Shown here in pieces: positions 4,357 through 35,304 of a DNA stretch of 64,000 nucleotides. The number at the start of each line of letters is the position of its first letter. Position 1 is the stretch's first letter. Source of the DNA: Nocardiopsis gilva YIM 90087 (GTDB lineage Bacteria > Actinomycetota > Actinomycetes > Streptosporangiales > Streptosporangiaceae); contig NZ_CP022753.1 in the NCBI RefSeq assembly GCF_002263495.1, positions 868,001 through 932,000 of the forward strand, written 5' to 3'. Both the position numbers and the translations under genes were made by a program. The notes under the pieces are model-generated. The model saw only the letters and a program-made list of their open reading frames with translations. It was not told the DNA's origin and searched no databases.

Positions 4357-5357
4357 GCCGCAGGATCGACATCGACGCCTACGCCGAGGGCGTCCTCGCC
4401 GGACACCGACCGACCCTGGCCCGCGCCATCACCCTGGTGGAGTCACGGCGCGCGGACCACGCGGGTTTGGCGCAGGAGCTGCTGGTCAAGCTGCTCCCGT
4501 ACAGCGGGAAGGCCCACCGCGTGGGCATCACCGGCGTGCCGGGCGTCGGCAAGTCGACGTTCATCGACGCGCTCGGCACCCGGCTGACCAGCGAGGGGCA
4601 CCGGGTGGCAGTGCTGGCCGTGGACCCCTCCTCCACACGCACCGGGGGCAGCATCCTCGGCGACAAGACGCGGATGGAGCGGCTGTCGGTCGACCCGAAC
4701 GCGTTCGTGCGCCCCTCGCCCACGGCGGGCACGCTCGGCGGCGTCGCACGGGCCACCCGCGAGACGATGATCCTGATGGAGGCCGCGGGCTTCGACGTCG
4801 TGCTGGTGGAGACGGTCGGCGTGGGGCAGTCGGAGGTCACCGTCGCCGCCATGGTCGACTGCTTCCTGTTCCTGACCCTCGCCCGCACCGGCGACCAGCT
4901 GCAGGGCATCAAGAAGGGCGTGCTGGAGCTGGTCGACGTCGTCGCCGTGAACAAGGCCGACGGCCCCCACGAGTCCGAGGCGCGCAAGGCCGCCCGGGAG
5001 CTCGGGCGCGCGCTGCGGCTGCTGCACCCCCCGCACACCGCGTGGCGTCCTCCCGTGCTTACCTGCAGCGGTCTCACCGGCGACGGCCTGGACGAGGTGT
5101 GGAAGGCGGTGCTCGACCACCGCTCGACGCTGGAGGGGAGTGGGGAGTTCGCCGAACAGCGCAGCCGCCAGCAGGTCGACTGGATGTGGTCCCAGGTGCG
5201 CGACCGCCTGATGGACCGGCTGACGCGCCATCCCGGCGTGGGCGAGGCGACGCCGCGGCTCGAGGCGGCCGTGCGGTCCGGTGAGATCACCGCCACGCTG
5301 GCGGCTGAGCGGCTCCTGGAAATCTTCACAGACTCCGCTGAGGCGGCGGGGGAGTGA
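4353..5357 (+). CDS. meaB: methylmalonyl-CoA mutase-associated GTPase MeaB
   Basis: SIMIBI-class G protein of the MeaB/ArgK family that protects and reactivates methylmalonyl-CoA mutase and gates cofactor loading. The 334-residue product has a P-loop GVPGVGKST at residues 61-69, a Mg-binding VDPSS segment, the switch-region [10 protein letters not shown], and NKAD as the G4 guanine-specificity motif. It overlaps the mutB stop by ATGA, so the chaperone is made together with its client enzyme. Length and motif order are those of the family. Confidence 0.96.
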
Positions 5358-5672
5358 CGCGCACCCGGTGCCCCGGCCTGGAGTACATGAAACTTGCCAC
5401 AGACTTTTCTGGTCTGAGCTGACCTGTACCGGAAAAAATCTTCACGCATCGGCATTCCCGTGCGCCCGATCGGCTAATACCGTGTGTGCCCAGAGACTTA
5501 CGGGAACCAGCGAGCCGGGTTCACCGGAGCGCGGCGCCGATCACCGCACCGGACTTCAGGCGTGAATCCGGCGCGACGGAGTGCGGCCGGACCCCCTACC
5601 GGAATTCGCCGTTTTCCGTATGGTTGACCCAAAGGGGCCCCTCACATCGACGTGGGGCTGGGAGGAGTGAAC
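5358..5672. other. intergenic region upstream of the STAS gene
   Basis: About 315 bases between meaB and the STAS gene. It is richer in A and T than its neighbours around 5400-5480 and holds no convincing reading frame. A short inverted repeat (GGGGCCCC near 5636) precedes the ribosome binding site. No promoter could be assigned with confidence. Confidence 0.4.
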
Positions 5673-6044
5673 GTGCACAGGCTTGGGCTGAGTACCCGGG
5701 TCGAGAACCACAGCGTGATCGTCAAGGTCGAGGGTGAGCTCGACATCGCGACCGCTGACGACCTCCAAGAGCATGTCCTGTCCGCCGTTGAGAAGCATGG
5801 ACCCTGGCTGATCCTCGACCTCACGAACCTGGAGTTCATGGACTCCAGCGGACTGAACGTCGTGATCCAGGCCTACAGCGCCGTCAAGGAGCGCAACGGC
5901 AGCCTCGCGCTCGCCGCGCCGAACGAACGTGTCGACAAGGTCGTCCGGCTGGTAAGCCTGCACCGCCAGGTCCCGGTCCACCACACGGTGCCCGCTGCCG
6001 TCAACGCCATCGAGGCGCTGGAAGCCAAGCAGCAGGCCGGCTGA
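5673..6044 (+). CDS. STAS-domain anti-sigma factor antagonist
   Basis: Single STAS-domain protein of the SpoIIAA/RsbV/BldG type. Such proteins bind an anti-sigma factor kinase when unphosphorylated and so release an alternative sigma factor. The FMDSSGLNV segment contains the serine that partner kinases phosphorylate in this family. No anti-sigma kinase lies next to it, so its partner must be elsewhere. GGAGG at 5661-5665 is ideally spaced for the GTG at 5673 (7 bases), and too close for the GTG at 5667; an in-frame GTG at 5652 lies upstream of the site. The product is about 123 residues, the usual length for a stand-alone STAS protein. Confidence 0.9.
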   Translation: MHRLGLSTRVENHSVIVKVEGELDIATADDLQEHVLSAVEKHGPWLILDLTNLEFMDSSGLNVVIQAYSAVKERNGSLALAAPNERVDKVVRLVSLHRQVPVHHTVPAAVNAIEALEAKQQAG

Positions 6045-6070
6045 TTGATCGGTCCCCCCGTCGGACCGAT

Positions 6071-6117
6071 GACATGACGGGCGGACCCGCGATCGACGCG
6101 GGTCCGCCCGTCATGTC
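6071..6117 (+). terminator. strong hairpin terminator after the STAS gene
   Basis: A perfect 20-bp inverted repeat (arms 6071-6090 and 6098-6117, 7-base loop) starts 27 bases after the STAS stop codon. There is no T-run, as is common for GC-rich actinobacterial terminators. Confidence 0.8.
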
Positions 6118-6240
6118 GTGTGCTCCGAGAACACCCCCTCCGTCACCGCCCTGCGGGCACCCGCGGGCGCCGTCGGCGCCCATCCGCGAGCGGCCCGTCC
6201 CCGGGGCCGGAGCTCGGCACGATCGATAGGGTCCGGAGAT

Positions 6241-6720
6241 ATGGCGACACCCGAGTTCATCCTCCGGCTGCGCAAGCACGTGGGACACGAGCTGCTGTGG
6301 CTGACCGGAGTGACGGGGGTCGTCGTCGACCCCGACGACCGCGTCCTGCTGCACCAGCGGGCCGACGACGGCTGCTGGGCACCGCCCGGAGGGATCCTGG
6401 AACCCGGGGAGCAGCCCGCGGCCGCGCTCGCGCGCGAGGTCGCCGAGGAAACCGGCGTCCACGTGGTCCCGGAGCGGGTGGCGTGCATCGTCACCGAGCA
6501 ACCATGGACCTACTCCAACGGGGACGTGGTCCAGATCCTCGACATCACCTTCCGCTGCCGCCCGTCCGGCGGCGAGATCCGGCTCGACCGCGACGAGTCC
6601 CTCGACGCCGGCTGGTTCGCCCCCGACGAGCTTCCGGAGATGAGCGAGGCGCTCCTGCGCCGTGTCCGGCTCGCCCGCGAGGAACGCGGCGAGGCCTGGT
6701 ATCAGCCGTACGGAGAGTAA
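6241..6720 (+). CDS. Nudix hydrolase
   Basis: Predicted 159-residue cytosolic Nudix-family pyrophosphohydrolase that cleaves a nucleoside diphosphate linked to another moiety. The Nudix box is intact: GGILEPGEQPAAALAREV followed by AEETGV matches Gx5Ex7REUxEExGU at about residues 56-78. The ATG at 6241 with GGAG just upstream is preferred; earlier in-frame starts would run into the STAS terminator. The exact substrate cannot be read from the sequence. It stands alone, with a convergent transporter downstream. Confidence 0.9.
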   Translation: MATPEFILRLRKHVGHELLWLTGVTGVVVDPDDRVLLHQRADDGCWAPPGGILEPGEQPAAALAREVAEETGVHVVPERVACIVTEQPWTYSNGDVVQILDITFRCRPSGGEIRLDRDESLDAGWFAPDELPEMSEALLRRVRLAREERGEAWYQPYGE

Positions 6721-6767
6721 CCTCCACCGCGCCCCCGCATTGACCGACGGGACCGAACCGACCGGAC

Positions 6768-8315
6768 TCAGAACGAGATGCCGAAAAGCCACCCGGCGAT
6801 CGCGTACATCACGAACATGACGACGAAGACGGCGATGGTGTTGAGCCAGGTGCCGGCCTTGATCATCTGAGGGATCGTGACCTGGCCGCTGCCGAAGACC
6901 ACCGCGTTGGGCGGCGTCGCCACCGGCAGCATGAAGGCCAGGGAGGCGGCGAGCGTGGCCGGGACGACCAGGGTCATCACGTCCAGGTTCATGCCGAGGG
7001 CGACACCGCCCAGCACCGGCAGGAACGTGGCGGTGGTGGCGGTGTTGCTCGTCAGTTCGGTCAGCACCAGCACCAGTGCGATCACGACCACCAGCAGCAC
7101 CCACACCGGGATGTCGTCCAGGGCGCCGACGCGGGTGCCGATCCACTCGCTCAGCCCGTTGGCGGTGAACTGGCTGGAGAGCGTCAGGCCGCCGCCGAAG
7201 AGCAGCAGGATGCCCCACGGCAGCCGGACCGCGCTCTCCCAGTCCATCAGCTTCTCGCCCTGTGTGCCCTCGTTGGGGATCAGGAAGAGGGCGACGGCGA
7301 CGGCCATCGCGATCCCGGAGTCGGAGATCCGGTCCAGCCAGGGCAGCATGCCGCCGGTCGGCGACTGGGCCAGCAGCGGGATGAACACCCACGACGCCGC
7401 GGCCGCCACGAACACGGCCAGCACGCGCCGCTCCGCACTCGTCATCGGGCCCATGTCGCGCAGTTCGCCCTTGATGACGTCCTGGGCGCCGTCCAGCGAG
7501 GCGACCTTGGGCGGGAAGACCACCCGGGTCAGCACCACCCAGGCGATGACGAGGAAGACCGCGGCGAGCGGGAACCCGATCAGCATCCACTGGCCGAAGC
7601 CGACGTTGATGTCGAACGTGTCCTTGACGTATCCGGCCATGAGCGCGTTGGGCGGGGTGCCGATGAGGGTGGCGACCGACCCGATGGACGCGGCGTAGGC
7701 GACCCCGAGCAGCAGCGCGGTCGCGAAGTTGGTGTCGGACTTCCCGTCTCGCAGCTGGGTCACCAAGGTGATGACCGAGAGCGCGATGGGCAGCATCATG
7801 ATCGTCGTCGCCGTGTTGGCCACCCACATGGTGATGAAGCCGCTGGCGAGCATGAACCCGCCGATCAGCCGCACCGGGTTGGTGCCGACGGCGCCCACGA
7901 TGGCCAGCGCCACCCGCTTGTGCAGGTTGGCCTTCTGCATGGCCAGGGCGAGCATGAACCCGCCCATGAACAGGAAGATGACGTCGTTGGCGTAGGGAGC
8001 GGCGACGTCATCGATCTCGGCCACGCCGAACAGCGGGAACAGCACGAGTGGCAGCAGCGCGGTGACGGGGATGGGCAGCGCCTCGGTGGCCCACAGGGTG
8101 GCCATGAGCACCGCGACGGCCGCGGTGGCCTTCCCACCGGTCGACAGGGCGTCGGGAAGCAGCAGGTACACCGCCGCGGCGAGCAGCGGGGCCAGCGCGA
8201 GCCCGACGCGTTTCGCCTTGGAGGGTTGGGGGTTGGCCGCCCGTTCGGTGGTCAGCGCGGGAAGGCCCTGTCTGCTCGGGTCGGCTGGGGGATTGTTGCC
8301 GATGTCGGCTGCCAT
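6768..8315 (-). CDS. SLC13/DASS family dicarboxylate transporter (copy 1)
   Basis: Inner-membrane divalent-anion:Na+ symporter family protein (515 residues, about 11-12 hydrophobic segments), likely importing succinate, malate, fumarate or citrate. The two SNT substrate and sodium-binding motifs are present (VANTATTIMMLP and ELTSNTATTATFLPVLGG). The ATG at 8315 has AAGGAG eight bases upstream; longer in-frame starts lack a binding site. A paralogue lies immediately upstream on the same strand and is very similar throughout, so the pair is a tandem duplication. Confidence 0.93.
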   Translation of the reverse strand: MAADIGNNPPADPSRQGLPALTTERAANPQPSKAKRVGLALAPLLAAAVYLLLPDALSTGGKATAAVAVLMATLWATEALPIPVTALLPLVLFPLFGVAEIDDVAAPYANDVIFLFMGGFMLALAMQKANLHKRVALAIVGAVGTNPVRLIGGFMLASGFITMWVANTATTIMMLPIALSVITLVTQLRDGKSDTNFATALLLGVAYAASIGSVATLIGTPPNALMAGYVKDTFDINVGFGQWMLIGFPLAAVFLVIAWVVLTRVVFPPKVASLDGAQDVIKGELRDMGPMTSAERRVLAVFVAAAASWVFIPLLAQSPTGGMLPWLDRISDSGIAMAVAVALFLIPNEGTQGEKLMDWESAVRLPWGILLLFGGGLTLSSQFTANGLSEWIGTRVGALDDIPVWVLLVVVIALVLVLTELTSNTATTATFLPVLGGVALGMNLDVMTLVVPATLAASLAFMLPVATPPNAVVFGSGQVTIPQMIKAGTWLNTIAVFVVMFVMYAIAGWLFGISF

Positions 8316-8705
8316 GAGTACGTCTCCTTGCGTGGCTGGTGGCTCGGACGGACACCCACCGGGGCCGAGGCGCGTCGCGCGCGGCGACGTCGGGGGTTGC
8401 GGCACGGTAGTCGGGGGTGCCCCAAGCGGACCTGCGGTGATCGTCCTCAGTGCGACCTGGGTCACGCAATGGTGTGACGTGAGACTTGAGGTTCCGCTGA
8501 CGTGGAATGACGTGCGGTGACGGTGCGGGTGCGGGCCGCCGTGGTGATCCCCGGTGGCGGGAACGTGGCGGGCAACAGGGCGACGGCTCGGGCCCCCGAC
8601 GAGGGGCGGCGCCCGCGCAGAGGGGAGGGGGTGTGCGCGGGCGCCGCAGTAGGGACGGCCGAAGCGCGCGGAGGGGGAGGCCGCGCCGCGACGACGCTGA
8701 AGGTT
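8316..8705. other. intergenic region between the two DASS genes, with TGACGTG repeats
   Basis: About 390 bases with no gene. It contains three TGACGTG copies at 8475, 8498 and 8508 and a partial fourth at 8518, the last three spaced by 10 bases. One further TGACGTG occurs at 10463 upstream of the second DASS gene. This may be a binding array for a regulator shared by the two transporters; that is an inference from repetition only. Confidence 0.4.
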
Positions 8706-29630: not shown

Positions 29631-29748
29631 GTTGCGGTGGTTTTTGCGAGGGGGTCACACCCGGTCTCATTTCGAACCCGGTCGTTAAGTTCCTCAGCGC
29701 CGATGGTACTGCCTCCATGGTGGGGGTGGGAGAGTAGGACGCCGCCGC
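29631..29748 (+). rRNA. rrf: 5S ribosomal RNA
   Basis: About 118 bases with the conserved TTCGAACCCGG, GCGCCGATGGTACTGC and GGGAGAGTAGGACGCCGCC segments; the 5' GTTGCGGTGG pairs with the 3' end. Boundaries are estimated from the terminal helix. Confidence 0.93.
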
Positions 29749-29759
29749 GCATTTCTTGT

Positions 29760-29802
29760 GGAGGAGGGTTGCCCCTGTGGGGGTGGCCCTCCTCCTTTTT
29801 TA
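29760..29802 (+). terminator. rrn operon terminator
   Basis: GGAGGAGGG (29760-29768) pairs with CCCTCCTCC (29787-29795), with an inner GCCCC/GGGGT extension, followed by TTTTTT. A classic intrinsic terminator just after 5S. Confidence 0.9.
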
Positions 29803-30356
29803 TTGCCCGGGTTTGTGAACATGTGAATCAACGGCGTGCTGTGGGGGTGGCGTTCCCCTGCCTCCTGGCACCGCTTCACTCTAGGTTGACGTTGCAAGAG
29901 CCCAGTTCAGTCCGTGTCTGTGCGTCCGCATCGTGGTTGGCGAGGCAGTCAAGGATCGCGTCGGCTGTGGGTCAATTCGGATGACCAAAATCAACATATG
30001 ACGAATGCCCAAATTGACTGGCTCAGTGTGATCAAAGAATCGCGCTTGAGTCGGACATCGAGCGATTTGTCGTGTCGTCCCATTACCGACTCTGAGAGTC
30101 ATCCTGTCACGGGTGGTTTGAGAATCAGACGGCCCGGTTATGGTCGCTCGCGCCGGTGGAGTGTCGCGTTTTCGATTAACAACCACTGGCGTTGGATGCT
30201 CATTGAAGGAATGCCCAAGCGATTCCACGTTTTCTTTCTAGTGCGTCCGAAGTTAATCGAAGTGACTCTGGCGATGGTGACGAGTAGTCACCTCGATCCA
30301 ACCTGGCCACCACGGGGCGTAAGGCGCACCTGTGGGGACAAAGAGGAGGTAGGAGA
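29803..30356. other. upstream region of the RiPP cassette
   Basis: About 550 bases of lower GC than the surrounding genes, between the rrn terminator and the precursor peptide gene. A long open frame exists on the plus strand but runs through the precursor gene in another frame and has no domain-like pattern, so it is not called. The promoter of the peptide gene should lie here; no single -10/-35 pair stands out. Confidence 0.4.
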
Positions 30357-30518
30357 ATGCAGGAAAAGATGCACCAGCCTGGGATGCCGTTGCTGGCTGA
30401 CCCAGTGGAACGCAAGCTCAACACCACGGCCGCGTCGGCCGCCGACGGTGTCGACCAGTCAATCTTCGGCGGGATCACTTGGAAGGACATTCCGTTCGCT
30501 GGCGACAGCGACGAGTAG
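30357..30518 (+). CDS. putative cyanobactin-like RiPP precursor peptide
   Basis: A 53-residue peptide gene with a strong AGGAGG site. It has the architecture of cyanobactin precursors (PatE type): a leader MQEKMHQPGMPLLADPVERK whose P-V-x-R element recalls PatE leaders, an N-terminal protease site GVDQS (31-35; canonical GVDAS), a putative core IFGGITWKDIPF (36-47), and a follower AGDSDE (48-53) like the AYDG or AGDDAE ends recognised by PatG-type macrocyclases. The core has no Cys and one Thr, fitting the absence of a heterocyclase gene. The next gene encodes a PatA/PatG-family protease. Product would be a 12-residue peptide, possibly head-to-tail cyclic; core borders are inferred. Confidence 0.75.
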   Translation: MQEKMHQPGMPLLADPVERKLNTTAASAADGVDQSIFGGITWKDIPFAGDSDE

Positions 30519-30546
30519 TCTGCTGCGATCCGTTGTGGACTTTTCG

Positions 30547-30621
30547 GCCTCGCCCGGCTTGCGAGGTCGATCGGGCCATGAATGCCAGCGCGGATATGTG
30601 ATTTTTCCGCATAGTGCGGTC
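30547..30621 (+). terminator. possible attenuator hairpins between precursor and protease genes
   Basis: GCCTCGC (30547-30553) can pair with GCGAGGT (30561-30567), and CCGCATAGTGCGG lies near 30609. Such partial terminators commonly raise precursor over enzyme transcript in RiPP operons. Stems are short, so confidence is low. Confidence 0.3.
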
Positions 30622-30663
30622 TGACCTTGGTATGAGCACACGAGTTCTGAGGAGTCGTAATTA

Positions 30664-32730
30664 ATGGGGAAGCTGTCAATCATTCCCGGGCTCTCCGAGC
30701 TGTGGCGGCTGACCAAGGGTGACGACCGTGTAGGGGTGGCCGTGGTCGACGGCAGGGTCGGTGCCGGCCACCCCGCCTTCGCTGGGAGTGGGCTGGCCTC
30801 CGTGGAGGGTGTGTGGCCCAGCGACGGTGCGACGGGTGCGAAGGCGGCCCATGGCACGTCCGTGGCCGGAGTTCTCTTCGGTCAACACGACGGCCCCGTC
30901 CCAGGCGTGGCGCCAGGGTGCCGGAAGGTGAGCGTTCCGGCGTTCTCGGACCGGTGGGCGCGCACGTCACAGCTGGACCTTGCGCGCGGAATCGAGCTGG
31001 CGCTGGACGAAGGCGTGCACGTCATCAACATCAGCGGCGGACAGCTCGCCTCGGCCGAGGAAGCAGAGGACCCACTGGCGCGGGCGGTGCGCCGGTGCAA
31101 GGAGAGCAACGTCCTGGTCGTGGCAGCCGCCGGGAACGACGGCTGCTTCTGCGATCACGTGCCCGCGGCTCTGCCCTCGGTATTGGCGGTTGGCGCACTG
31201 GACGACGAGGGCCGTCCGCTGCCCAGCAGCAATTGGGGTCCGGGGAACACTCGCCAGGGCATTCTCGCCCCAGGCCAGAACATCCCGGTGCCAGTTCCCG
31301 GCGGAGGCGTGGCTCTGCAGACCGGGACCAGCCTGGCCGCGCCGGTCGTGTCGGGCGTGGCCGCCCTTCTGCTCAGCTTGCAGCTACGCGACGGTCGTGA
31401 ACCCGACCCGCGGGCCATAGGCGAGCTTCTGATGACCACTGCTGATCCGTGCGACCTCGGCGACGCCGATGCCTGCGCACGTTTTCTGAACGGCAAACTC
31501 AACATCACGAAAGCGGTAACCACTGTGACCTCGAACGAGACAGACGTGTCCGTGGCTCACTCGCAAGCTGAGCCGGTGTCCCCGATCCCCGAGACCGCGA
31601 CCGGCAGACCCGAGCAGGCGGTGCCCAGCTGTGACTGCGGGTGTGACCAAGCACCGGCCGCAGCCGCGACGGTCCCGACTGCCCAGGCTGCCCTGCAAGC
31701 TCCGACGGATCCTGCGGCGGCTCCTGCGACAACCCCTGCGGCGGGGTCAGCGGCGGTGACCCTGTCCTCACCGGCTCCGGCCCCCGTGCCATCTCCCGCG
31801 CCCGCGCCGCCCCCGGCTCCTACGCCACCGCCACAGGCCACGTCAACGGTGACGACGTCGTCAGACGACCCAGCGCGCGTGCCGGCCCAGCGTCTGGCGT
31901 ATGCGCAGGGCGTACTGGGATACGACTTCGCTACTGAGGCGCGTCGTGACAGCTTCAAGCAGCTCATGGCGCCCGTCGAGGTTGGCGGTGCGCACGTCCC
32001 CGCCAACCCGTACGACCCCAACCACATGGTCGCTCACCTCAGGGAGAATCCCTCTGAGTCATCCGCGCTGATCTGGACGCTCAATCTCGACCTGACACCG
32101 ATTTACGCCATCGAACCCAACGGCGGCTACACAGTCGGCGTGTACGAGCGTCTGGTGGATTTCCTATCCCGTCAGCTTGAGTGTGATGACGGGGCGAACT
32201 TCGTCGACCGCGTCTCGATCCCCGGTAAATTGCCCGGCCGTACGGTCAAGCTGTTCTCGGGTCAGGAAGTGCCCGTCGTGGAGGTCGAACTCAAGCGCGG
32301 CCTGTACGGGTGGTCGGTCACGAGCCTGGCCAACGCGGTCGCCGAGGCTGGAGCGGCTGGGGCCAAGAAGGGCAACCCGTCTGCGGACACACTGCGTGCG
32401 GCCGTCGCGGAGTTCCTCACCCGCGTCTACTACGATCTCCGCAATTTCGGGGCGACCTCGCGCGACCGCGCGCTGAACTTCGCCGCGACCAACGCGGTTC
32501 AGGCCCGCGACACTCTGGCTCAGGCACTGAGCCAAGGTCTGGCCCTGCAGGACATCGACGTCGAGAAGAGCCCGTTCGCCCGCCCCGACAGCGACTGCTG
32601 GGATGTGAAGCTGCGCTTCTTCGACCCCGAGAACAGCCGCCGCGCCAAGCGGGTGTACCGCTTCACCGTCGACGTCAAGGACGTCATGCCGGTGACCGTC
32701 GGCGACATCCGAAGCTGGCCTGAGAGCTGA
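30664..32730 (+). CDS. PatA/PatG-family cyanobactin-type maturation protease (S8)
   Basis: Subtilisin-like protease of the cyanobactin maturation family, 688 residues, no signal peptide. The S8 domain (about 5-290) has an intact triad: Asp29 in VAVVDG, His63 in AHGTSVAGVLFG, Ser223 in GTSLAAPVVSG, with oxyanion Asn158 in AAAGNDG. The segments VLFGQHDGPVPGVAPGCR, SQLDLARGIE and INISGGQL are near-verbatim PatA/PatG features. A Pro/Ala/Thr linker (about 330-400) leads to the C-terminal PatA/PatG-specific domain (about 405-680). It should cleave the precursor at GVDQS and/or the AGDSDE border; whether it cyclises cannot be told. GAGGAG lies upstream of the ATG. Confidence 0.88.
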   Translation: MGKLSIIPGLSELWRLTKGDDRVGVAVVDGRVGAGHPAFAGSGLASVEGVWPSDGATGAKAAHGTSVAGVLFGQHDGPVPGVAPGCRKVSVPAFSDRWARTSQLDLARGIELALDEGVHVINISGGQLASAEEAEDPLARAVRRCKESNVLVVAAAGNDGCFCDHVPAALPSVLAVGALDDEGRPLPSSNWGPGNTRQGILAPGQNIPVPVPGGGVALQTGTSLAAPVVSGVAALLLSLQLRDGREPDPRAIGELLMTTADPCDLGDADACARFLNGKLNITKAVTTVTSNETDVSVAHSQAEPVSPIPETATGRPEQAVPSCDCGCDQAPAAAATVPTAQAALQAPTDPAAAPATTPAAGSAAVTLSSPAPAPVPSPAPAPPPAPTPPPQATSTVTTSSDDPARVPAQRLAYAQGVLGYDFATEARRDSFKQLMAPVEVGGAHVPANPYDPNHMVAHLRENPSESSALIWTLNLDLTPIYAIEPNGGYTVGVYERLVDFLSRQLECDDGANFVDRVSIPGKLPGRTVKLFSGQEVPVVEVELKRGLYGWSVTSLANAVAEAGAAGAKKGNPSADTLRAAVAEFLTRVYYDLRNFGATSRDRALNFAATNAVQARDTLAQALSQGLALQDIDVEKSPFARPDSDCWDVKLRFFDPENSRRAKRVYRFTVDVKDVMPVTVGDIRSWPES

Positions 32731-32755
32731 CCCGACACCCGCAAGGAGGGACGCG

Positions 32756-32956
32756 ATGTGCTTTCCCAAACAGGTGCCGCCGGTGCGCCGTCCTGAGCTG
32801 GTGAACCCGAACCGCATGGTCGATCTGGCGAAGGCGGCCCAGGGCGAGTGGGCCGCCCTGGGCGAGCTGTCGGTGTTCACCACGCACCTCAACGACCCGC
32901 AGGCCTACACTCCGCCGAGCTATCAGGAGATGCAGTACTCGGCGGCCTGGTGGTAG
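32756..32956 (+). CDS. small RiPP-cassette protein, possibly PatC/TruC-like
   Basis: A 66-residue protein with a textbook AAGGAGG site, 25 bases after the active protease gene and before the degenerate one. The sequence starts MCFPKQVPPVRRPELVNPNR and ends QEMQYSAAWW, hydrophobic-aromatic at the C-terminus. Cyanobactin clusters carry small conserved proteins of unknown role (PatB, PatC); position and size fit such a protein. A second, unusual precursor peptide is an alternative, but no GVDxS-type site is present. No enzymatic motif is visible. Confidence 0.65.
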   Translation: MCFPKQVPPVRRPELVNPNRMVDLAKAAQGEWAALGELSVFTTHLNDPQAYTPPSYQEMQYSAAWW

Positions 32957-32988
32957 CCCCTCGAACGTGATCCAGGAGTTGGTGCACC

Positions 32989-34944
32989 TTGTGCGAACAG
33001 ACGTCCCAGTCGCGGCAACGTGAGCCACTGCCGGATGGACTAACGGCAGACGCGGTGGGGGCCGTGCCCGAGGGGCACCGCGCCGCGGCCGGGAACGCCG
33101 AGATTCCGGAGCCATCTCCATCTTCGGTTCCAGAGGAGCTGTTTCCGGCCGATGCGGTCGCCGGCGTCAAGGAGCTGTGGGTACACACCCGCGGCGAGCC
33201 GGAGGTGACGATCGGCGTTGTCGAGAGCCCTCCGGACATGGAGCACCCCAGTCTGGCGGGCTCCGAGATCACCATGGTCGACTCGTGGTGGATGCCTGCG
33301 GTCACTCCGGAAGACGGCGCGATGGAGCACGGGACCTATACGGCCAGTGTGCTGTTCGGTCAGCCGGGCAGCGTACTGGAGGGTCTTGCACCTCGTTGCC
33401 GGGGGCTCATTTGTCCAGCACTGCGCGACAACTCGTCGGTGCTCGACCCGCTCAATGCGGCGCGCGCGATCGAGGAGCTGACCGAGGCAGGGGCCGACAT
33501 CGTCCTGTTCATGGCGGCACACCCGGCGCCCGCCGATGGCAACGGCACGTTCGACCTGGTCCGACGCGCTGTTGAGCAGGCGAGCCAGGCAGGTGTCCTC
33601 GTCACCGCGCCCGCGGGCAACGACTACGGTCGCAATCCCGTCGCCCCGGCGCTGCTGCCCGAGGTGCTGGCCGTCGGTGCCCACCGCGCCGACGGCACGA
33701 TGTACAAGTTCAGCAATTGGGGGGATGGCTATCACGGGCACGGCATCGCCGCACCGGGCGGGGAGGTGCTCGGCGCCGCTCCTGGGGGAGGGGTCAAGGC
33801 ACAGAAAGGCACATGCGTGGCCGTGTCCATGGCGACCGGCGCCGCGGCCCTGCTGCTCAGCCTCCAGAGGAAGGCGGGGCTGTCCGCCGATCCGCTCGGG
33901 GTGCGAGAGGCGTTGCTGCGCACGGCCCGCTCCTGCGATCCCGAAATCGCCCATGACGACACTGGGCGCTGTCTCAACGGCAAGCTCGACCTGCCCGCAG
34001 CTGCTCGGATGCTGGTAGGCGAAGGCGTGCTCAGCAGTAACCGGACCTCGGGCGCGGGCGCGGCTGTGCCGTCGTCTGCTTCGGCGGTGCGACTCTGCAG
34101 CCCGACAACGGCGGCCAAGCCCGCGCGTTCACCTGCGGCGACTCCGAAGTGCCGTAAGCGAATGGCCGCGGCTGGCGATGAGACGGCGCGGTCTGACACG
34201 AGGATCACCACGTTCGCCGAGCGGCCCGAGCTGGTGCAGTCCGGCATCGAACGCACGCCTCCGGGGCCCGGGTTTCTCCAGCGCTCCCTCGCCGACCGAT
34301 GGGAGGTGGCGAAACGCCTCTGTGGGCGTTTCCCGCAGTTCGGCGTGGCCGCGACGAGAGCGGTCGACGGCTCGGTTGTGGGACATGGCATCGGCGTGCC
34401 GCTCGCGCTTTCCGCTTCCGGTCGCGGTCACCTGCCCGGCGGGGGTGGCCAGGAGATGCTGGCCTGGGCACTGTGCGATGAGCGACGGGGCGTCCACCCC
34501 GACACTCTGGGGCTCCTTGGCATGACCATCCACCCCGAGCATCGTGGCACGGGCCTGAGCAGGTCCTTGCTGCAGGCCCTGAAGGAGGCGGCGCGGTCAG
34601 CCGGTCTGAGGGAGGTGGTCACGTCGGTGCGGCCAACCGCGAAGCATCGCCGCCCGGCGGAGCCGATGGCCCACTACGCCCGAAGGACCCACCGTGACGG
34701 CCTGCCCTGCGACCCCTGCCTGCGCGTCCATGCCCAGGCGGGTGGGCGAATCACGTCGGTGGCTCCGTCTGCGCTGGTGGTGTCCGGCCCCCTGGCCAAG
34801 TGGCGGCAATGGACGGGGTTGCCCTTCGACGCCCCTGGCCCAGTGCACGTGCCCCTTACGCTGGCTCCGGTGCGCTGCGACCCTGCCCAGGACCGTGCTG
34901 TCTACGTCGAACCGCACGTCTGGGTGCGACACGCGTTGGACTGA
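32989..34944 (+). CDS. degenerate PatA/PatG-type subtilase fused to GNAT acetyltransferase
   Basis: A 651-residue two-domain protein. Residues about 55-350 are homologous to the PatA/PatG protease domain (KELWVHTRGEPEV, SVLFGQPGSVLEGLAPRCRG, FSNWGDGYHGHGIAAPGGE). The triad is altered: Glu79 replaces Asp (GVVES), His114 remains (EHGTYTAS), and Cys276 replaces the nucleophilic Ser (KGTCVAVS); Asn211 is kept. A low-complexity linker leads to a GNAT fold (about 440-650) with the acetyl-CoA motif IHPEHRGTGLSRSLL. It may be a substrate-binding scaffold that directs acylation of the peptide (its core has one Lys), or a cysteine-type protease. Start is TTG 32989 after AGGAG; GTG near 33055 is possible. 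Confidence 0.82.
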   Translation: MCEQTSQSRQREPLPDGLTADAVGAVPEGHRAAAGNAEIPEPSPSSVPEELFPADAVAGVKELWVHTRGEPEVTIGVVESPPDMEHPSLAGSEITMVDSWWMPAVTPEDGAMEHGTYTASVLFGQPGSVLEGLAPRCRGLICPALRDNSSVLDPLNAARAIEELTEAGADIVLFMAAHPAPADGNGTFDLVRRAVEQASQAGVLVTAPAGNDYGRNPVAPALLPEVLAVGAHRADGTMYKFSNWGDGYHGHGIAAPGGEVLGAAPGGGVKAQKGTCVAVSMATGAAALLLSLQRKAGLSADPLGVREALLRTARSCDPEIAHDDTGRCLNGKLDLPAAARMLVGEGVLSSNRTSGAGAAVPSSASAVRLCSPTTAAKPARSPAATPKCRKRMAAAGDETARSDTRITTFAERPELVQSGIERTPPGPGFLQRSLADRWEVAKRLCGRFPQFGVAATRAVDGSVVGHGIGVPLALSASGRGHLPGGGGQEMLAWALCDERRGVHPDTLGLLGMTIHPEHRGTGLSRSLLQALKEAARSAGLREVVTSVRPTAKHRRPAEPMAHYARRTHRDGLPCDPCLRVHAQAGGRITSVAPSALVVSGPLAKWRQWTGLPFDAPGPVHVPLTLAPVRCDPAQDRAVYVEPHVWVRHALD

Positions 34945-34945
34945 A

Positions 34946-35089
34946 GTGGCGCAGAGCAAGGCGGAAGATGTCGATGGCTACCTGATCGAGGTGCCAGAAG
35001 ACCGGGGGAGGTCCCGTCCGAGCTGCAGCAGGTGTGCCGTTGACAGTGACTGGCCCTATCTGTTGCCGTCCGCCTTTGGAGCGACATAG
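34946..35089 (+). pseudogene. possible DUF1801 gene fragment
   Basis: The frame beginning GTG 34946 reads SKAEDVDGYLIEVPEDRG, which resembles the start of DUF1801 proteins (VDxYLAxLPEDRR). After the G-run near 35002 the continuation VPSELQQVCR is in another frame and soon meets a stop. This looks like a decayed N-terminal fragment; evidence is a short match from memory. Confidence 0.3.
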
Positions 35090-35304
35090 GTCCCCTTGCC
35101 TGGAGCTGTGACCACAAGCCCTTGTTCGGCGAGAACCTGGTATGCCGACCGTGCGGTTCGGCGCGAGACCCCGAACTCTTCACACACGGCTGCTTCGGAT
35201 GGGACAAGCCGGTTCGCCTCATGGGTCCCGTCGGAGATCCGACCTGCGATGACAGCAGCGATCTGCCGATACATCGGTTCGGGTCCGTCAAGGTCGGCAT
35301 TCAT
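35056..35304 (-). CDS. small GntR-family regulator (1)
   Basis: An 82-residue protein consisting only of a GntR winged helix: MYRQIAAVIAGRISDG, PSEAAVCEEFGVSRRTARSAY (split PSEAAVCEEFGVSRRTA), VVTAPGKGTYV. It lacks an effector domain, like KorSA-type or YtrA-like minimal regulators of mobile elements and small accessory loci. A second, related regulator lies 87 bases upstream on the same strand. Confidence 0.85.
   Translation of the reverse strand: MNADLDGPEPMYRQIAAVIAGRISDGTHEANRLVPSEAAVCEEFGVSRRTARSAYQVLAEQGLVVTAPGKGTYVAPKADGNR

Follow-up and report, generated by a model that had tools for sequence, protein, structure and literature searches.

The closest described counterparts of the gene cassette analysed here are the acy, mca/pir and pag (anacyclamide, piricyclamide and prenylagaramide) pathways, which share with it PatA- and PatG-type subtilases, a PatB protein, a precursor with a PVxR leader, a P/FAG follower (slashes mark proposed cuts) and the lack of a heterocyclase. 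The insert that lies between the triad Asp and His of PatG is described as two helices, with the cleavage site protected from water (PMC4663559). The second precedent is engineered: in subtiligase, peptiligase and their descendants, S221C gives subtilisin a thioester more open to attack by amines and P225A restores activity by relieving crowding (PMC7921005), and a laboratory mutant of the capped PatG with changes of the subtiligase type is reported as a 'PatG subtiligase' that favours cyclisation (PMC4663559). We describe a cassette of four + strand genes in a 64,000-nucleotide stretch of the Nocardiopsis gilva YIM 90087 genome (contig NZ_CP022753.1, positions 868,001-932,000; this whole stretch is the window, and its numbering is used below). 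The genes run in the order E-A-B-G (precursor, PatA-type protease, PatB-like protein, PatG-type subtilase-GNAT fusion), and G may be a PatG-type relative that works like a subtiligase. Unlike the acy, mca/pir and pag pathways the cassette is actinobacterial, its host belonging to the same family as Nonomuraea, and the G proteins of its kind have Cys for Ser and Ser or Ala for Pro225, lack the Asp-His insert and the PatG domain of unknown function (DUF), and can carry a GNAT domain.

An earlier sequence-only reading of this DNA had proposed a cyanobactin-type cassette in an actinobacterium with no heterocyclase beside it. This is borne out, as no YcaO heterocyclase is found in the window and the sole match in the genome lies at contig position 3,529,990. 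The same reading took the system to have one protease, which must be revised: a second PatA/PatG-family subtilase is encoded, along with a PatB-like gene (32756-32956). The features of this second protease, G, are as follows.

32989-34944, + strand: gene G, PatG-type subtilase (about residues 50-345) and GNAT domain (about residues 404-651), TTG start; from profiles and the predicted structure
33223-33225, + strand: Glu79 of G, at the triad Asp position; from alignment
33814-33816, + strand: Cys276 of G, at the nucleophile (Ser221) position; from alignment
33826-33828, + strand: Ser280 of G, at the position of subtilisin Pro225; from alignment

Alignment of G with A and with solved structures shows that His114 and Asn211 are kept, that Cys276 replaces Ser221 and that Ser280 replaces Pro225. 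The active site is subtiligase-like, with Cys rather than the Ser nucleophile of the described macrocyclases at 221, a small residue at 225, and the His and oxyanion Asn retained. Across 149 distinct S8 domains of the PatA/PatG family, aligned from the collected loci after three duplicates and six partial domains had been dropped, the residues at 221 and 225 are Ser and Pro in 137, Ser and Ala in three, Cys and Ala in six, Cys and Ser in three, and Cys and Pro in none, so that Ala or Ser occupies position 225 in 9/9 Cys domains as against Ala in 3/140 Ser domains. The nine Cys rows (window, L148, L149, L150, L151, L152, L153, L155 and L176, where L numbers denote loci) contain eight near-distinct proteins, L151 and L152 being near copies (G domains 99.7% alike); all other pairs are 55-76% identical, and 105 of the 293 columns are invariant in all nine, including the Cys, the His and the oxyanion Asn. 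Position 225 is Ser in the window, L148 and L149, and Ala, as in subtiligase, in the other six. A tree built from 97 of the 149 domains with the trait columns excluded shows one Ser/Cys change and three Pro/non-Pro changes, and in a careful 38-row tree the nine Cys rows lie on one side of a branch with support 94/83. In the latter tree a weak sister of the Cys clade (91/77) is the protein of L039, which has Ser with Ala (L175 denotes the same contig), suggesting that the loss of Pro225 may have preceded the gain of Cys. Both trees group G with other actinobacterial G proteins, outside the cyanobacterial PatG.

Homology identifies G as the PatG-type protease of the cassette. It scores 211 bits against TIGR03895 over part of the model (below the cut-off of 421), and its S1-region motif is PatG-like (VLFMAAHP in the window, IHFSAAHPT in L159, often IIHCAACHPT/IHCAACHPT in cyanobacteria, compared with NISGGQ in A). 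The predicted structure (mean predicted local distance difference test score 83.4, with 22 of the 30 ten-residue blocks between residues 51 and 350 at 90 or above) has PagA (Z 42.3) and the PatG macrocyclase 4aks (Z 42.0) as tied best fold matches, engineered peptiligases and aqualigase appearing lower in the Foldseek list. Two further PatG features are missing. The Asp-His spacing is 64-91 residues in 31/31 PatG-type rows inside the cyanobacterial clade (30 cyanobacterial, one from Bradyrhizobium; the list was drawn from the 97-row tree, and for two rows without the Asp end the value of 82 is a minimum), compared with 35 in 17 of the 18 other G rows, the window included, and 42 in the remaining one, so that the long insert is absent. 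A-type rows have spacings of 33-37 in 93/100, 31 in one and four truncated at Asp and His; the two remaining rows (84 and 85) are probably PatG-type and were left out of the PatG list. By Pfam, window G has no match to PatG_D or PatG_C, both of which are found in A, such that only one of the two proteases carries the DUF that was reported for PatA/PatG in all pathways characterised up to then (PMC4259220); four Ser-type relatives (L039, L040, L050 and L154) keep it on G. Since the Ser nucleophile, the insert and the DUF are all lacking, we class G as a PatG-type relative.

The C-terminus of G varies, with a GNAT domain in the window, L150, L153 and L159, no further domain in L148, L149 and L155, a longer extension lacking a Pfam match in L151 and L152 (L151 scanned, L152 being its near copy) and a contig end cutting G in L176. 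The GNAT family is also commonly found as a standalone protein, and GNAT as a defining part of the system was rejected because the standalone proteins share no neighbourhood (three records) and Cys-type G exists without it. One of these three records has an S8 peptidase gene four genes away. Following Cys-type G are a nitroreductase in L155 (4063-5340, - strand) and a DUF6895 protein in L151 (4665-5690, - strand), perhaps further tailoring modules.

We regard it as an even call that G is a natural subtiligase-like macrocyclase closing an 11-residue ring of the anacyclamide kind. In this scheme A would cleave after GVDQS to free the amine of Ile36, presenting G with IFGGITWKDIPFAGDSDE bearing a free N-terminal Ile; G would bind the FAGDSDE follower, Cys276 would attack the Pro46-Phe47 bond and the core would be held as a thioester. 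Because thioesters favour amines over water, the Ile36 N-terminus would take the acyl group to give the 11-residue ring cyclo(IFGGITWKDIP), a ribosomal peptide with a proteinogenic core and no azolines. In cyanobacterial PatG the helical insert would shield the acyl-enzyme from water; actinobacterial G has no such cap, and in the Cys clade changes at the two subtiligase positions would stand in its place, which would make these enzymes natural equivalents of the engineered subtiligase. The GNAT domain joined to G would, at a guess, be an exchangeable tailoring module that transfers an acyl group to the peptide. We infer ring closure through an uncapped thioester from the work on subtilisin positions 221 and 225 and from the 'PatG subtiligase' report. 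That this PatG-type clade swapped a water-excluding cap and Ser for Cys with Ala or Ser at 225, closing rings via a thioester, seems to us just short of an even chance, and we hold with the same slight reserve that protein engineers picked the same two positions (221 and 225) independently of nature. G would differ from subtiligase in being natural, in belonging to another S8 branch and in probably acting on an amide rather than an ester; from the 'PatG subtiligase' it differs in being both natural and uncapped. If the scheme is correct, G would put the principle of subtiligase and peptiligase to a natural test, in an enzyme that evolution had already shaped to close small rings on a short follower, and the protease fold would have two ways to join peptides, a water-excluding cap (PatG) and an amine-preferring thioester (G). 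The clade would then supply compact uncapped macrocyclases with which to make cyclic peptides, and would open a new source of such peptides from actinobacteria. Among the open-licence PubMed Central (PMC) matches listed, we saw neither a naturally occurring Cys subtilase ligase nor actinobacterial cassettes of this kind described, a weak negative that covers open-licence papers.

Several points weigh against ring closure by G. Thiol-subtilisins act poorly on amides, which counts here because G would have to open an amide. The activity of thiol-subtilisin is described as drastically lower (PMC7921005). Reports on Ser at 225, the residue of the window, disagree: against it, the same source quotes earlier screens that found no active change other than Ala, and a second source has only Gly tolerated there besides Ala (PMC9126251); in its favour, one later background did better with Ser, Asn, Asp, Cys or Gly at this position than with Ala (PMC7921005). 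The nine Cys rows represent one retained evolutionary event and not nine independent trials, the support of the Cys-clade branch is not starred, and constraint on G is mild only, with nonsynonymous/synonymous rates (dN/dS) of 0.31/1.12 for window-L148, 0.21/0.44 for L148-L149, 0.22/0.45 for L153-L176 and 0.0018/0.0025 for L151-L152. Ser-type actinobacterial G also lacks the insert, so the loss of the insert and the gain of Cys are separate events. Window G has Glu at the Asp position, a substitution seen in 12/149 rows (the window, four other actinobacterial G and seven cyanobacterial rows, some perhaps misaligned). Finally, a head-to-tail ring would present the GNAT with no amine other than that of Lys43, and Lys is absent from the L150 and L153 cores though the G of these loci carries a GNAT.

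G might instead be a cysteine hydrolase that removes the follower to leave a linear 11-mer, perhaps N-acylated by the GNAT; a linear product would offer the fused GNAT of the window, L150, L153 and L159 a free amine. Linear cyanobactins exist, and G lacks the insert that keeps water from the PatG cleavage site (both PMC4663559). We consider this explanation unlikely all the same: exchanging Ser for Cys and losing Pro225 shifts the balance from hydrolysis towards aminolysis (PMC7921005), the opposite of what a hydrolase would need, the C-terminal Pro found in each of the 11 cores also marks cyclic anacyclamides, and three of the nine Cys-type G open reading frames (ORFs; L148, L149 and L155) are complete yet too short for a GNAT.

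Slightly less probable again is a G that has become a pseudoprotease and serves just to bind the precursor, the Ser-type A cutting on both sides of the core or a host protease removing the follower. While the replacement of Ser, and in the window of Asp as well, would fit such a role, the Cys, His and oxyanion Asn that remain are invariant over the nine Cys rows, and 225 holds only small residues, leaving space for a Cys nucleophile. The S1-region motif of G is likewise unlike that of A, but the difference is in the direction of cyanobacterial PatG and not one of plain decay.

The remaining genes of the cassette have the following features.

30357-30461, + strand: leader and N-terminal recognition site of E, ...DPVER...GVDQS (residues 1-35); relatives share the PVxR leader and an ...x-x-S site
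30462-30494, + strand: core IFGGITWKDIP (residues 36-46), best reading; from the triple-core L153, the Ser-type relatives and cyanobacterial P/FAGDDAE frames
30495-30518, + strand: follower FAGDSDE and stop; from sequence and the conserved flank in relatives
30664-32730, + strand: gene A, PatA-type protease with an S8 domain, then PatG_D and PatG_C; from TIGR03895, Pfam, 4h6w and alignment
32756-32956, + strand: gene B, PatB/AcyB/McaB-like small protein of 66 residues; from a TIGR04220 match and the same position in relatives

The earlier reading correctly placed a PatA/PatG-family protease with an intact triad directly after the peptide gene. A scores 745 bits against TIGR03895 (PatA/PatG maturation protease; cut-off 421), its closest solved structure is PagA (4h6w, 6.8e-91), and alignment recovers D29, H63 and S223 (codon 31330-31332) together with N158, making A the PatA-type protease with an N-terminal Ser-triad domain. 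B matches TIGR04220 at 1.1e-9 (37.8 bits, below the cut-off of 55). By descent A clearly belongs to the cyanobactin kind, and the membership of B and E is well supported. The N-terminus of the relatives' PatB (PPQAPPVRRP) looks like a precursor leader (LPIQSAPVVRT in L151), as if it were a leader mimic or descendant; the regions concerned are 32756-32956 in the window, 7176-7373 in L151 and 6981-7184 in L153.

E is the 53-codon ORF at 30357-30518 containing GVDQS, IFGGITWKDIPF and AGDSDE, as first proposed. Although its scores sit below both library cut-offs (2.5e-5, 24.9 bits, just under 25, for DUF5840; 1e-6, 28.9 bits, below 35, for TIGR04446, the anacyclamide/piricyclamide precursors), its frame is conserved among relatives, with recognition sites on either side of a hypervariable core. 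The E-A-B-G order recurs in 12 further loci (the eight from L148 to L155, together with L176, L039, L040 and L050), in which cores are hypervariable and flanks fixed. The expectation that protease-bearing relatives keep such a peptide was upheld, as all 12 A-B-G loci encode one with a PVxR-type leader that ends in F-A-G/D-acidic, and 11/12 have an x-x-S site before the core (L154 is without the Ser). In the Cys loci the recognition site, core and follower read as follows.

L148: VEQS/IQFPVHP/FAGDDDE
L149, two precursors: GVTPS/FMILGSTFSGLP/FAGEGDE and GVAPS/WLEPFRGSAGHFINLVPGAP/FAGEGDE
L150: GVGQS/ITDFRFP/FADEGDE
L151 and L152: GAEQS/LWPVVPIPGVP/FADENDE
L153, three tandem cores: GVEQS/EWGSFRFP/FAGVEQS/LAWDGSRP/FAGVEQS/VAGNFRVP/FAGEGDE
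L155: DVHQS/QHWRIWRP/FADEGDE
L176: AVGQS/GSGTWWGSP/FADDGDE

Each of the 11 distinct cores in the Cys loci ends in a Pro that precedes F-A. The original proposal was a 12-residue core; on the best reading the window core has 11 residues, IFGGITWKDIP, ending at Pro46. A 12-residue core ending at Phe47, with G cutting between Phe and Ala, would satisfy the Cys loci equally, as both P and F are invariant before A there and cannot separate P/F from F/A. In the Ser-type loci, however, F stays constant and the residue preceding it changes from locus to locus (I in L039, T in L040, M in L154 and P in each of the three L050 precursors), assigning F to the follower. In addition, Pro precedes F in 33/34 distinct cyanobacterial FAGDDAE frames of the fetched loci, the sole other frame (L044) having an upstream stop, lacking the usual form of PVxR leader and probably not being a gene, and anacyclamides are described as retaining one C-terminal proline (PMC4663559). 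We therefore regard the longer core as very improbable. None of four published core peptides sought in the fetched loci is present, so the boundary has no anchor on a known product and the cut site is placed by homology. The computed [M+H]+ is 1228.67 for the cyclic 11-mer and 1375.74 for the cyclic 12-mer.

The cassette also occurs outside this genome. PatB matches were found in 12/341 genomes of the family, 4/394 of a class sample (the others being three small genomes with Ser/Pro-type G) and 1/396 of a phylum sample (this genome only), and TIGR03895 matches above cut-off in 10/249 genomes of the order, this genome counted in each case; as TIGR03895 also sees ordinary subtilases (248/249 order genomes match at some level), only the 10 above cut-off were counted. 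A contig scan in which the best 80 of 171 relatives were kept gave 79 loci, mostly cyanobacterial, with others including Nonomuraea (L039), Gandjariella (L040) and Streptomyces (L050).

Two features lie upstream of E.

29760-29795, + strand: terminator-like hairpin after the 5S rRNA, a 16-pair stem with 11 G-C pairs and a T-run; it divides the cassette from the ribosomal RNA (rrn) operon
30343-30355, + strand: likely ribosome-binding site GAGGAGGTAGGAG, directly 5' of the E ATG; from reading the sequence

The position behind an rrn operon, to which attention had been drawn, is real, the 5S gene ending at 29750, but looks incidental, since the hairpin follows the 5S gene and no rRNA was found in the surrounding 10-15 kb stretches of the relatives' cassettes (9/9 relatives searched). 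Read-through from the operon into the cassette was rejected on the same two grounds. A defence role was also rejected: in PADLOC, A matched a generic 'subtilase' model (1.3e-21) and, weakly, IetS (0.00096), and B and G matched nothing. TIGR04445 (PatF-type prenyltransferase) has no match in the genome, but as a control search matched nowhere this does not show absence. A decaying or silent cassette is very improbable, since the four window genes are open, ordered and recurrent in relatives and dN is below dS for G, whereas the signs of decay are a consensus scan of 29700-35100 that found no promoter-like site, such scans carrying little weight, and the relative L159, which is missing the first 466 codons of A. 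L159 itself reads as a decaying cassette, with B and a Ser-type G-GNAT open (5262-8432).

Among more distant loci with a related protease, conservation of the peptide gives way. In L034, L035, L037, L038 and L156 (four Streptomyces plasmids and one genome of the order), a single PatA-like protease with PatG domains is accompanied by small peptides with a PxQxxPVxR-like leader, GVEA and then a C-terminal core without a follower; no second PatA/PatG-type protease was found in these stretches, and a BTAD regulator adjoins the protease in the Streptomyces plasmids. They appear to form another cyanobactin-like group. L102, a metagenome-assembled genome titled Bifidobacterium breve, and the small actinobacterial genomes L178-L180 have A-B-G with a Ser-type uncapped G; L102 encodes several small peptides of a precursor type unlike the others (...APVDR...CFEG...), and the patterns used found no precursor in L159 or L178-L180.

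A TP_methylase gene lies directly 3' of G in three loci (L039, 7058-7903; L040, 12858-13682; L154, 9406-10284) and in none of the other 25/28 sources searched. Of the 13 loci with a readable core, precisely these three have a last core residue other than Pro (I, T and M, respectively). The methylating enzymes of borosins share the TP_methylase fold. Borosin pathways methylate backbone amides (PMC8429565), and it is possible that in these loci an N-methyl amide replaces Pro at the ring-closing bond, which would make them a backbone N-methylating class of cyanobactins.

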